Below, in pieces: positions 3,645-38,428 of a DNA stretch of 64,000 bases (the first letter of the stretch is position 1; each line of letters begins with the position of its first letter). The notes below the pieces were generated by a model that saw only the letters and a program-made list of their open reading frames with translations, did no database searches and was not told where the DNA came from. The DNA comes from Pyruvatibacter sp. HU-CL02332 (lineage in GTDB: Bacteria > Pseudomonadota > Alphaproteobacteria > CGMCC-115125): positions 434,001 to 498,000 of the forward strand of contig NZ_BAABWK010000002.1 in NCBI RefSeq assembly GCF_040362765.1. Reading direction: 5' to 3'. The translations under genes were made by a program, and so were the position numbers.

Positions 3645-4115
3645 CTAATCGAACGCGAACTGGCCACCGATCACGCCGCGTGAGCCGTCTTCAAACTGAA
3701 TGGCGAGATGCAGCACTTCGAAATCGATATGCTCCAGATTGTCGCCCACATAGTTGCCCCGCAGGGTCAATGGCTCGCAGGTTGTCGCAGCGTGGCGGTA
3801 ACTCTCAACAGTCTTGGGCCCAAAATCCGGCCCATAGACGCCAGTCAGTGTCTGGTTCGTCAGCGCACGGCGCATCCGCTCCTCAATCTGGCTGCCAACG
3901 AGACGAAACTGGTAATCATCGCCCAGTGGCTTGGCCAGGAACAGGCACGGCAGCAGCTTGGGCAGTTGTAGCGGATCAAAATCAGACCGCATCAATGGCT
4001 GCCCCTCTGGCCGTTTTTCCTCCCAATAGGCCAGCAACGCCTGATTGTTCATATGAGATGGAGCGTCCACCCGGCCGGAGGAATATCCCAGCGTTTTAGG
4101 CTTTTTCTGTAACAT
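3645..4115 (-). CDS. PAS-like domain protein (PAS_5/DUF family), copy A
   Basis: A 156-residue soluble protein that I assign to the PAS_5-type family seen mostly in Alphaproteobacteria, usually as a stand-alone domain. The order is a helix NNQALLAYWEEKRP, a linker, then a PAS-like sheet with YQFRLVGSQIEERMRRAL and LTLRGNYVGDNLEHIDFEVL, ending GQFAFD. The protein at 6049-6531 shares this architecture and the motifs RL(V/I)GS-IEER, LRGN-G---EH-D-E and G-FAF, so the two are paralogues. The ligand and partners are unknown. No output domain is attached. No clear ribosome binding site lies upstream of 4115, and an internal ATG at 4052 is possible. Confidence 0.75.
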   Translation of the reverse strand: MLQKKPKTLGYSSGRVDAPSHMNNQALLAYWEEKRPEGQPLMRSDFDPLQLPKLLPCLFLAKPLGDDYQFRLVGSQIEERMRRALTNQTLTGVYGPDFGPKTVESYRHAATTCEPLTLRGNYVGDNLEHIDFEVLHLAIQFEDGSRGVIGGQFAFD

Positions 4116-4187
4116 GCAGAGATTATTGCATTATTCCGGTTATCAATTCGCAAATATACCGTGTGCGTCCTATTGGTTGAGTGAACC

Positions 4188-5135
4188 CTATTCAGCCGCT
4201 CTAAGCGCCCCTGCATAGGGTTCCGCATTCCAGTCGGGATATCTCTCCTTGGTGCGCTCAAGCGTCCGCTGCGTCCAATAGGCATGGCCAGGCAGCGGTA
4301 TACCAATCAAAGCAAGCTGCTCAGGCGTTGCGTGGGCAAAAATGGTCTCCCACGGTTTCATGAAGTGGTAGGGCCACGCCGACCAGCCGATCATTTCATT
4401 GCCGGCTCGTTTGAAGCTTGCGGTGAGCGTAAACCGCCGCGCACCGGGCAATGTCAGGTTGGTACCGCGATGAAACACGTCAATGCCATAAGCGAAGATT
4501 GACCCTGCCGGTGCCGCCCCAGACTTTTCCAATGGCTTCAACTTTGCCTGCTCGGCATCGCCCGGGAATTGCGGGCGGCGACCGTTCATGACTGTGTCGC
4601 CGTCTGGCTGAGTCACGTAATGAATTGCGCCGTGTTCATTGGTTACATCCGTGGCGTAGATCATGATGTTGATCGTCCGCTCCCGCACGTCGTCGGATGG
4701 CGCAATCAATGTGTGGTTTTTAAAGTCACAGTGAAATGTCTGGTCATAGTCAGCACCGCCGGTAAATTTGGCCCAGCTGTGGCTTTGATAGAGATGCACG
4801 TCCTCGGCCTGCAAGGCAGCGCGAGCAAGTTCAGCAAGGGCAGGATGCATGCCCAGTAGGTTCAACGCTGGCGAGCAGTCGAACGGCATGTCGTCGAAGT
4901 AGGCAAACTGCTCAACTTCAAACTGGCCGATTGAACCGCTCTTTTTATTGTCCCGAGCTGAACTCTGGGCGCCGGGTGCCTTATCGCCATACAGGACCTC
5001 AAAGTCCTTCAAGACCGGCGCCAACTCCTCCGGTGTAAAGAAGTTCTCGATCAGGACCGCTCCATCGCGATTCCAGTTCGCAATATCCTTTTCGGTGAAG
5101 CGGCAATCAGCTGATGTGATTGATCCTGGACTCAT
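4188..5135 (-). CDS. Phytanoyl-CoA dioxygenase (PhyH) family protein
   Basis: Predicted Fe(II)/2-oxoglutarate-dependent oxygenase; the substrate is unknown. The metal triad is visible as HCD in QTFHCDFKNHTL (H-x-D) and the distal His in DVFHRGTNL, with an Arg for 2-oxoglutarate in GARRFTLT. The start at 5135 is chosen because GGGAGGA lies seven bases upstream; the ATG seven codons earlier has no such site. Length 315 aa. It sits between a PAS-like gene and terC, all on minus. Relatives act on lipids, small metabolites or secondary metabolites, so the name is only a family label. Confidence 0.82.
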   Translation of the reverse strand: MSPGSITSADCRFTEKDIANWNRDGAVLIENFFTPEELAPVLKDFEVLYGDKAPGAQSSARDNKKSGSIGQFEVEQFAYFDDMPFDCSPALNLLGMHPALAELARAALQAEDVHLYQSHSWAKFTGGADYDQTFHCDFKNHTLIAPSDDVRERTINIMIYATDVTNEHGAIHYVTQPDGDTVMNGRRPQFPGDAEQAKLKPLEKSGAAPAGSIFAYGIDVFHRGTNLTLPGARRFTLTASFKRAGNEMIGWSAWPYHFMKPWETIFAHATPEQLALIGIPLPGHAYWTQRTLERTKERYPDWNAEPYAGALRAAE

Positions 5136-35032: not shown

Positions 35033-36550
35033 ATGATTGTCGAACCAGAATTTTCCGCCTTTGAGCAAGCCTACAAAGCGGGGACCGCACAAGTCGTGTG
35101 GACGAAGCTTGTGGCTGACCTTGAAACGCCGGTCTCCGCCATGCTCAAGCTTATGGACGGCCGCTTCAACTCATTCCTGTTGGAGAGCGTTGAAGATGGG
35201 GCTGTGCGCGGGCGTTACTCCATCATCGGCGTTGACCCGGATATTCTGTTTCGCGCCACAGGCAATGCCGCGGAAATCAATCGTAAGGCGCTGACGGACC
35301 GGACGGCCTACGAGCCGTGCGACGCCGGCACGCTTGATGCGCTACGGGACCTTTTGGCCGAGTCCGCAATAGACCTCCCGCACAGCCTACCGCCCATGTC
35401 GGCGGGCGTTTTCGGCTATCTGGGCTACGACATGGTCCGTCTGATGGAGCATCTGCCGGACCAGAATCCGGATGCGCTTGGCCTGCCGGACTCGATTATG
35501 GCGCGCCCCACAGTCATTGCCGTCTTTGACAGCGTGCGCGATGAAATCTCGCTAGTAACGCCGGTCCGCCCAACCGACGACATCTCCGCCAAGGTCGCCA
35601 TGACCCGCGCAGAAGAGCGGCTGTCAGCTATCGTTGATGCGTTGGACAAGCCGCTACCCCATGCGGCCAATGCATTCGTGGATGCGGCTGCGCTGCCAGA
35701 ACCCGCTTCAAATACTCAGCCTGCGGAGTATCACCAGATGGTGAACACCGCCAAGGAATACATCGCAGCGGGCGACATCTTCCAGGTGGTGCCGAGCCAG
35801 CGGTTCTCCGTACCGTTCGACCTGCCCCCCTTCGCGCTCTATCGCGCTCTGCGACGTACAAACCCGTCGCCCTATCTCTATTTCCTCGACTTTGAAGACT
35901 TTGCTGTCGCCGGGTCGTCACCGGAAATCATGGTCAAGGTGGCCGGTGACGAAGTCACCATCCGCCCAATCGCCGGAACGCGCCCTCGCGGCGCAACCCC
36001 TGAGGAAGATCTGGCGCTGGAGGAAGAGCTTCTGGCCGACCCCAAAGAGCGGGCCGAGCATTTGATGCTGCTTGACCTTGGCCGCAATGATGTGGGTCGC
36101 GTGGCAAAGATCGGCACGGTGGAGGTCACCGCCAGCTATACCATCGAGCGCTACAGCCAGGTGATGCACATTGTTTCCAACGTCATCGGCAAGCTTGATC
36201 CAAGCTATGACGCGATTTCCGCTCTCGTCGCTGGCTTCCCGGCAGGAACCGTCTCCGGTGCGCCCAAAGTGCGGGCGATGGAAATCATCGACGAGCTGGA
36301 AAAAGAAAAGCGCGGTCTTTATGCAGGCTGCGTTGGTTACTTCTCAGCCGGTGGCGACATGGACACGTGCATCGTGCTGCGCACCGGTGTCGTCAAGGAC
36401 AACACGCTCTATGTGCAGGCTGGCGGCGGTGTCGTTGCAGACAGCGACCCAGAAGCCGAGCGCATGGAAAGCGTGAACAAGGCCAAGGCACTTTTCAAAG
36501 CTGCGGAAGAAGCGATCCGCTACGCGAGCAGCGTCGGGCGTGGGCAGTAA
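35033..36550 (+). CDS. trpE: Anthranilate synthase component I
   Basis: Makes anthranilate from chorismate with TrpG. At 505 aa, the N-terminal part has LMDGRFNSFLLESVEDG (tryptophan feedback region), and the C-terminal chorismate-binding domain has GTRPRGATPEED, LLDLGRNDVGRVAK, FPAGTVSGAPKVRAMEIIDE and QAGGGVVADSDPE. ATG 35033 fits the family start; the frame is open further upstream inside ppiD. No trpL-type leader or attenuator is visible. It is separated from trpG by a two-gene islet, unlike the usual order. Confidence 0.96.
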   Translation: MIVEPEFSAFEQAYKAGTAQVVWTKLVADLETPVSAMLKLMDGRFNSFLLESVEDGAVRGRYSIIGVDPDILFRATGNAAEINRKALTDRTAYEPCDAGTLDALRDLLAESAIDLPHSLPPMSAGVFGYLGYDMVRLMEHLPDQNPDALGLPDSIMARPTVIAVFDSVRDEISLVTPVRPTDDISAKVAMTRAEERLSAIVDALDKPLPHAANAFVDAAALPEPASNTQPAEYHQMVNTAKEYIAAGDIFQVVPSQRFSVPFDLPPFALYRALRRTNPSPYLYFLDFEDFAVAGSSPEIMVKVAGDEVTIRPIAGTRPRGATPEEDLALEEELLADPKERAEHLMLLDLGRNDVGRVAKIGTVEVTASYTIERYSQVMHIVSNVIGKLDPSYDAISALVAGFPAGTVSGAPKVRAMEIIDELEKEKRGLYAGCVGYFSAGGDMDTCIVLRTGVVKDNTLYVQAGGGVVADSDPEAERMESVNKAKALFKAAEEAIRYASSVGRGQ

Positions 36551-36583
36551 CCAACGCTCGGCCTGGGTAGGGAAAATTGTATT

Positions 36584-37078
36584 GTGCTGATCCAAGTAGA
36601 AGTCAGCGGCGACTATGAGCCAGCTGGCATCAAACCGTCTGTTGCTCAAATCTATATGGACCAACAAGGCGTCAATGATTTATGCGAACAGTTGGATGCT
36701 TTGGAACTGCCTGGCGACCATACTCACAATTTCTCAGATGATTGGGGCGGCAGCGAGTTGTCGCTCGGGCCAAAGCACAACCCAAATGCACATTATGGCC
36801 ACCACCTCGAGCTAATTTTCTTTGGGGTTGGGCACATAAATGCTGAGGTCGAAGTACCTGGAGATGGCCGCCCGCCTGGCATAGTTGAAATTCATGTGAA
36901 CGCACGCGGAAGAGATGAACTTATCAGAGCGTTGCTCTCGCTTTTGCCTCACAAGAAGTGCGTAGCCTACGCAACAAAGTCCTTTGAAAAAATCGCAGAT
37001 GGAGTTTTGGACGGCAAACATCAAAGCCGGGATGGAATGACCCCCCTTACCTATTTGGAGTTTTGCCTGATCCCCTAG
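36584..37078 (+). CDS. Imm32-like protein with two tandem modules
   Basis: A 164-residue protein that begins with GTG. Residues about 45-60 (DHTHNFSDDWGGSELS) match the core of Imm32-type immunity proteins of polymorphic toxin systems, so I assign it there tentatively. Residues 3-81 and 85-164 look like two copies of one module: I-x-(V/A)EV-x-GD-x-x-P-x-GI, then an IY/IH strand, then a Leu-rich helix, each ending in an LE-x strand. The DWGG core is kept only in the first. By my counts GC is about 50%, below trpE. No toxin gene is adjacent, so it would be an orphan. It splits trpE from trpG. Confidence 0.55.
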   Translation: MLIQVEVSGDYEPAGIKPSVAQIYMDQQGVNDLCEQLDALELPGDHTHNFSDDWGGSELSLGPKHNPNAHYGHHLELIFFGVGHINAEVEVPGDGRPPGIVEIHVNARGRDELIRALLSLLPHKKCVAYATKSFEKIADGVLDGKHQSRDGMTPLTYLEFCLIP

Positions 37079-37081
37079 TCT

Positions 37082-38170
37082 CTACTGCGCCATCGCAAGC
37101 TGTGAGCGCCTGCCTTCCATTTCGATGGCCTCACGGATGGTCACGAGCCGCAGGCCCTTCGCTTCAAGCCCCTTCACCCAGACGTCGAGTATTTCAAGGG
37201 AGGTCGAATGCGGGTGCGCAATGGCGACAGCGATGCCACGCGTGCGGGCCTGGCGTTCCAGTTCATCAAGCTGCGCCAGTAAAAAGTCTTCTCCCTCGCC
37301 GTGATCCAGAAACACATCACGAGCAATGAAGGGCACATCGTATGTCGCGGCAGCTGCACGTGCCTTGCTGTTTCTCGTGGTGATTGAATCGACGAATACC
37401 AGGCCACGTTCCGCGGCGCCGCGCATGACTTCATCCATCACCCGCCGGTCAGCCGTTGCGCGGCTGCCCATGTGATTGTTGATACCAGCAAGCGGTGCGG
37501 CTTCTGCAAGGTCGGCAATCTGCTTGTCCAGTTTGGCACGCAACTGCCGATCGCTATCCTGTGTCATTAGGGCGTCTGGGCCTGGATTGGCCTGGCCCCG
37601 AGGCTCCATAGGCACGTGGAGAAAAATCTCATGCCCCTTTGCGGCCGCCGCCTGCGCCAATGGGCGTGAAACCGGCCCGTAGGGCAGGAAGCTGAGCGTG
37701 ACCTCGGTGGGGAGACGCAGCGCATGCGCTGAACGATCCGGTACAACCCCCAGATCGTCGATCATCAACGCAATGGCAGGGCGATTGTCGCGTGTCAGAC
37801 CCGGATCGATCGCAGCTGTTGTAAGCGGCACAAGGCCTGTCTTACCGGATGCCACTACCAGCGGCGGGATTTCGGCTGGAAGCATAATCTGAGAAAAGAC
37901 CATCCTTGGCGGCGCATCCTTCAACGCGCGCTTCCCGGCTGCAATCTGGACCGGAGCACCAGATACGCTGCCAACAGCGACCACGTAGTCGCCAGGTAAA
38001 TCTTGAGGCGTCATCCAGGACGTGACATCCACGCGCGGCGCATAAAACGACACCGCGAGCAGCGTCATGCCCAATAGCATTCCCGTTGCAAAGGCCATGG
38101 GCGCGCGCAGCTTTGCTGGTACGCTGAATGCGTGCCGGAAGCGGTCGCTAATTGGTTTTGCCTGCGCCAC
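37082..38170 (-). CDS. Divergent polysaccharide deacetylase family protein (YibQ-like)
   Basis: A 362-residue protein. An N-terminal membrane anchor (APMAFATGMLLGMTLLAVSF) is followed by a linker and a NodB-like domain of the divergent type (DUF610): IALMIDDLGVVPD, VTLSFLPYG, HEIFLHVPMEPRG, GINNHMGSRATADRRVM and AIAHPHSTSLEILD. Members are often near murein hydrolase activators and are thought to act in the periplasm on envelope glycans; the substrate is not established. It starts with GTG, supported by AGGAG five bases upstream. A perfect CtrA-type box lies 37 bases upstream. Confidence 0.88.
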   Translation of the reverse strand: MAQAKPISDRFRHAFSVPAKLRAPMAFATGMLLGMTLLAVSFYAPRVDVTSWMTPQDLPGDYVVAVGSVSGAPVQIAAGKRALKDAPPRMVFSQIMLPAEIPPLVVASGKTGLVPLTTAAIDPGLTRDNRPAIALMIDDLGVVPDRSAHALRLPTEVTLSFLPYGPVSRPLAQAAAAKGHEIFLHVPMEPRGQANPGPDALMTQDSDRQLRAKLDKQIADLAEAAPLAGINNHMGSRATADRRVMDEVMRGAAERGLVFVDSITTRNSKARAAAATYDVPFIARDVFLDHGEGEDFLLAQLDELERQARTRGIAVAIAHPHSTSLEILDVWVKGLEAKGLRLVTIREAIEMEGRRSQLAMAQ

Positions 38171-38221: not shown

Positions 38222-38428
38222 CACTATATGTTGTGGCGGTAAACGCGCTGATTGGCCAAAAACCGCAGAAAGCTGGGGATATGTATCTCCTCTCTAGTTT
38301 CCATGCGGAAAAGCGCGGCAGAGGTGCAGCGTCAGAGGACCGGTTTTCTTGCCTAATTGGCTGGATGGCCCCTATATGTCGCGCACATGTTTTTCGCGGG
38401 CTTTCACTCTTTTCAGGACACTTAGGTG

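Follow-up and report, generated by a model that had tools for sequence, protein, structure and literature searches.

A putative horizontally acquired, two-module Imm32-like orphan immunity gene behind trpE of Pyruvatibacter sp. HU-CL02332

What is the role of a short, compositionally deviant gene placed directly behind trpE in Pyruvatibacter sp. HU-CL02332, and does it belong, as proposed in an earlier sequence-only reading, to the Imm32 immunity proteins? The window analysed here (the whole 64,000-nucleotide stretch, positions 434,001 to 498,000 of contig NZ_BAABWK010000002.1) does contain the proposed open reading frame (ORF), which starts with GTG and is preceded by a putative ribosome site (AGGGA, 36569-36573). 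Its GC content, estimated by that reading as near 50% against about 60% for a sampled trpE stretch, was measured as 50.2% vs 60.4% for trpE, which is lower than in any of 40 long window ORFs (53.2-60.6%). The codon score of its frame is the best among the six, with a weak codon signal (0.12 vs 0.29-0.38 in the neighbours), and inspection by eye revealed no signal peptide. The locus comprises the following features:

35036..36550, forward strand: trpE (name from the sequence-only reading; start by alignment with a same-genus homologue)
36584..37078, forward strand: two-module Imm32-like protein, 164 aa (ORF, HMM of relatives, composition)
36584..36829, forward strand: module 1, residues 1-82, Imm32-like, core HTHNFSDDWGGSELS (HMM of relatives, alignments; structure model)
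36830..37075, forward strand: module 2, residues 83-164, probable diverged strand-strand-helix copy (half-half alignment, profile score, low-confidence model)
37082..38170, reverse strand: Polysacc_deac_2 gene (divergent polysaccharide deacetylase), convergent 3' neighbour (Pfam, 225 bits)
36551..37081, no strand: 531-bp segment missing in sister species G003 (comparison of the gap from trpE stop to deacetylase stop)

The placement between trpE and trpG was correctly recognized from the sequence alone, with the amendment that the convergent deacetylase gene also sits there, ending 3 bp past the stop codon of the 164-aa ORF, and trpG begins beyond it, at 38426. The ORF begins 33 bp downstream of the trpE stop (36550) on the same strand, which makes trpE the likely source of its transcript; no promoter of its own was recognized. 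Around the gene there was no Rfam match, and flanking repeats looked for around the 531-bp insert were not found. In the same-genus genome G003 (TrpE 96% identical) the trpE stop is separated from the deacetylase stop by 3 bp, compared to 531 bp in the window. In another one, G001, the slot is filled by about 1.2 kb of GC-rich, repeat-rich, apparently non-coding DNA (L017:3052-4285) that contains recurring palindromes such as CCCTCCGGCTTGACCGGAGGG but lacks a comparable gene. A profile search detected no copy in three same-genus genomes, the one weak match (in G002) being an exonuclease. The simplest reading of this presence/absence comparison, which had been suggested as a check, is that of a species-specific insert of foreign composition, probably gained recently in this species.

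The assignment to Imm32 (PF15566) could not be made directly. The Pfam hmmscan (E <= 10) gave no Imm32 match, whether run with the full-length protein or with one of its halves (the Pfam cut-off for this family is 27 bits, and the hmmscan filters discard weak matches), the own-genome search gave no Imm32 match to this protein, and nothing meaningful was obtained from Pfam, NCBIfam, PADLOC and PHROGs. The suggested HMM comparison did succeed by way of relatives. The Imm32-like core claimed for the first half is present at residues 46-60 (HTHNFSDDWGGSELS) and is likewise conserved among genuine Imm32 members, with H46, H48, W54 and L59 invariant in a 10-row alignment. Against an HMM built from 12 relatives, with the query left out, module 1 scored 40.3 bits, a value reached by none of 1000 shuffles. 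The closest relative, an 81-aa alphaproteobacterial protein (L040, genome G704), aligns with module 1 in its entirety (Smith-Waterman score 113; shuffles 24 ± 4) and passes the Imm32 cut-off itself (33.9 bits vs 27). The single good match in a phylum-wide search (E 4.7e-4) was a 96-aa protein of genome G110 with an Imm32 score of 34.5 bits, whose gene begins 26 bp behind an Rhs tail. The tip of this tail is weakly similar to Ntox37 (18.6 bits, below the cut-off of 27.8), and the arrangement is of a kind listed in PMC3482391, which pairs Imm32 with Ntox12, Ntox37 and Ntox7. Iterated alignment searches yielded further relatives, and several of these exceed the Imm32 cut-off.

Judged by these comparisons, module 1 is homologous to Imm32. 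The two have in common a strand-strand-helix start, the HxH....WGG..LS core and a closing strand, whereas the window protein differs from the family in falling below the Pfam model, in its core-less second module and in the absence of an adjoining toxin gene. Its linker from helix to core is also shorter than in the Rhs-linked Imm32. The L040 gene resembles the window gene in being an orphan between housekeeping genes, but it encodes one module only.

The origin of module 2 is less clear. The proposal that the second half repeats the module architecture without the core was borne out as to the core, as both the HxH and the W are missing (a search of the other frames for a frameshifted core found none). 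As to the architecture, it held mainly for the strand-strand-helix part, although faintly: the repeat of the whole architecture, down to the final "LE strand", is visible by eye but not significant alone. Self-alignment of the halves gave a Smith-Waterman score of 49 against 24 ± 4 for shuffles, reached by 4 of 5000 of them (and by 1 of 1000 when the whole protein was shuffled). When scored with the HMM of relatives, module 2 reached 9.7 bits over the strand-strand-helix part, which none of 1000 shuffles and none of 386 real 82-aa pieces of window proteins attained. Both of these tests argue against a module 2 unrelated to Imm32, with a chance or convergent strand-strand-helix pattern. The hhalign comparison (E 0.0012, probability 19%) and the failure of module 2, used as a query, to match any plasmid speak for such a pattern, which we consider unlikely and which would be compatible with any functional reading. 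Overall, module 2 is likely a diverged copy of module 1, even though a duplication is not proven.

The suggested structure prediction was of limited help. The AlphaFold2 model of the full-length protein is of low confidence (pLDDT 48), with the same order of elements in both halves. The model of module 1 (pLDDT 65) has a predicted strand-strand-helix-helix-strand order, and a Foldseek search of the PDB returned no match at E <= 0.001.

Relatives are rare, being present in 4 of 385 Alphaproteobacteria genomes (the window's own not counted); two more weak matches lie in frames of 207 and 243 aa, as the exonuclease matches do. A peptide-pattern search of 84,980 species genomes, which needs near-exact peptides, found no relative with the window protein alone and one with a 4-row profile; the viral contigs and phages searched contained none. 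The plasmid search with the window protein or the G110 Imm32 as a query was empty, and with single-module relatives it retrieved members from Sinorhizobium, Rhizobium and Pseudosulfitobacter. Separately, weak matches to residues 18-61 (window positions 36635-36766) are often drawn by the helix and SSDWGAAELS segment of alphaproteobacterial NrnC/RNase D (e.g. L049; E about 0.001-1). These frames of ~210-250 aa were NrnC/RNase D wherever they were read, and we rejected them as a chance local resemblance.

The contexts of the relatives are assorted. The L040 protein is encoded between der and a short-chain dehydrogenase gene (L050); other Imm32-like genes adjoin a DUF2971 protein (L055) or a resolvase (L056), or lie behind a trypsin-like protease (L052). 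On a Sinorhizobium plasmid the relative is next to IS21 and is recorded as "Imm32 family immunity protein", and the name "immunity protein 32" has been given to one S. meliloti prophage ORF (PMC12429752). On a Pseudosulfitobacter plasmid (L057:2763-4270) the gene for a 90-aa Imm32-like protein lies 35 bp behind that for a Fic-domain protein (48 bits), and the two may form a toxin-antidote pair. None of the alphaproteobacterial relatives examined adjoins a polymorphic toxin. Such rare, solitary occurrences in assorted places fit the pattern of mobile antidotes. A side observation concerns DUF6678 (PF20383, 64 and 52 bits), which may represent a partner or an additional immunity family. In two unrelated genomes a gene for it occurs ~0.65-0.7 kb from the Imm32-like gene:

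L034:1435-1674 and 2388-2699: DUF6678 / Imm32-like gene pair (PF20383 score)
L059:2878-3357 and 4001-4225: DUF6678 / Imm32-like gene pair (PF20383 score)

The interpretation that we favor, with a probability of roughly 0.6, is that the gene was acquired horizontally and encodes an Imm32-like orphan immunity protein. The orphan status suggested in the sequence-only reading is backed by the absence of an adjoining toxin, the neighbours being trpE and the deacetylase gene, and by the genome itself: the follow-up on toxin genes elsewhere, confined to Rhs core and Ntox37, detected neither. As the genome has neither of these two, protection would be directed against others rather than self. For other families, orphan immunity genes with an actual or potential protective role against incoming effectors are on record (PMC10470768, PMC10539506); no orphan Imm32 studied experimentally came up in our literature search. 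We envision that the protein would be made from the trpE-side transcript and would remain in the cytoplasm, where module 1 may bind and block a competitor-delivered toxin tip of the Ntox12, Ntox37 or Ntox7 kinds. Module 2 might, at a guess, serve as an extra scaffold, pair with module 1 in a dimer-like manner or offer a second surface for another toxin variant. The points against such an antidote are the lack of a direct Imm32 match and of a recognized promoter, the weak codon signal, the low-confidence models and the empty fold search.

Among the competing explanations, a repurposed Imm32-fold protein that has lost the antidote role for another job (e.g. as a binding or regulatory partner) appears unlikely. 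It would agree with the toxin-free surroundings of the alphaproteobacterial relatives, with the location of one of them directly behind a Fic protein and of another behind a trypsin-like protease, and with the loss of the core in module 2. On the other hand, module 1 retains its complete core, and a scattered, rare, mobile-looking distribution suits antidote genes more than housekeeping ones. A non-functional remnant, i.e. a fused and decaying tandem Imm32 pair left by a transfer, is rather improbable: 164 codons stay open through both modules behind a plausible ribosome site, every conserved core position is retained in module 1 and no frameshifted core was found in the other frames, even if the low GC, the weak codon signal, the core-less module 2, the failure to find a two-module homologue and the apparently non-coding, repeat-rich DNA in the sister slot of G001 all speak for it. 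Least probable, and hardly more than a speculation, is that the complete and core-less modules act together as an internal dimer, or as an antidote with two targets, and that expression alongside tryptophan biosynthesis makes protection follow amino-acid shortage.

Returning to the orphan immunity protein, the suggestion that its two-module form is a candidate new element appears too strong, because tandem immunity domains have been described and orphan single-module Imm32-like genes exist in other Alphaproteobacteria. PMC3482391 describes polyimmunity proteins with tandem immunity domains in one chain, such as tandem SUKH domains or Imm73 with 2-3 copies per polypeptide; the Imm32 family has been characterized as limited in distribution. 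With its putative second module, the window protein would resemble the polyimmunity proteins in having more than one immunity module per chain. It differs in that the passages concerned describe no tandem Imm32, and in that this second module is core-less, with similarity supported over the strand-strand-helix part only. The novelty is accordingly modest and consists in a probable two-module Imm32, no other example of which was found in our (not exhaustive) literature and sequence searches.

If this interpretation is true, tandem immunity proteins would extend to Imm32. In Alphaproteobacteria, Imm32-like orphans occur singly in gaps that separate housekeeping genes, and a default Pfam search misses the Imm32-like protein of the window; likely antidote genes of this kind may constitute an under-counted reservoir.
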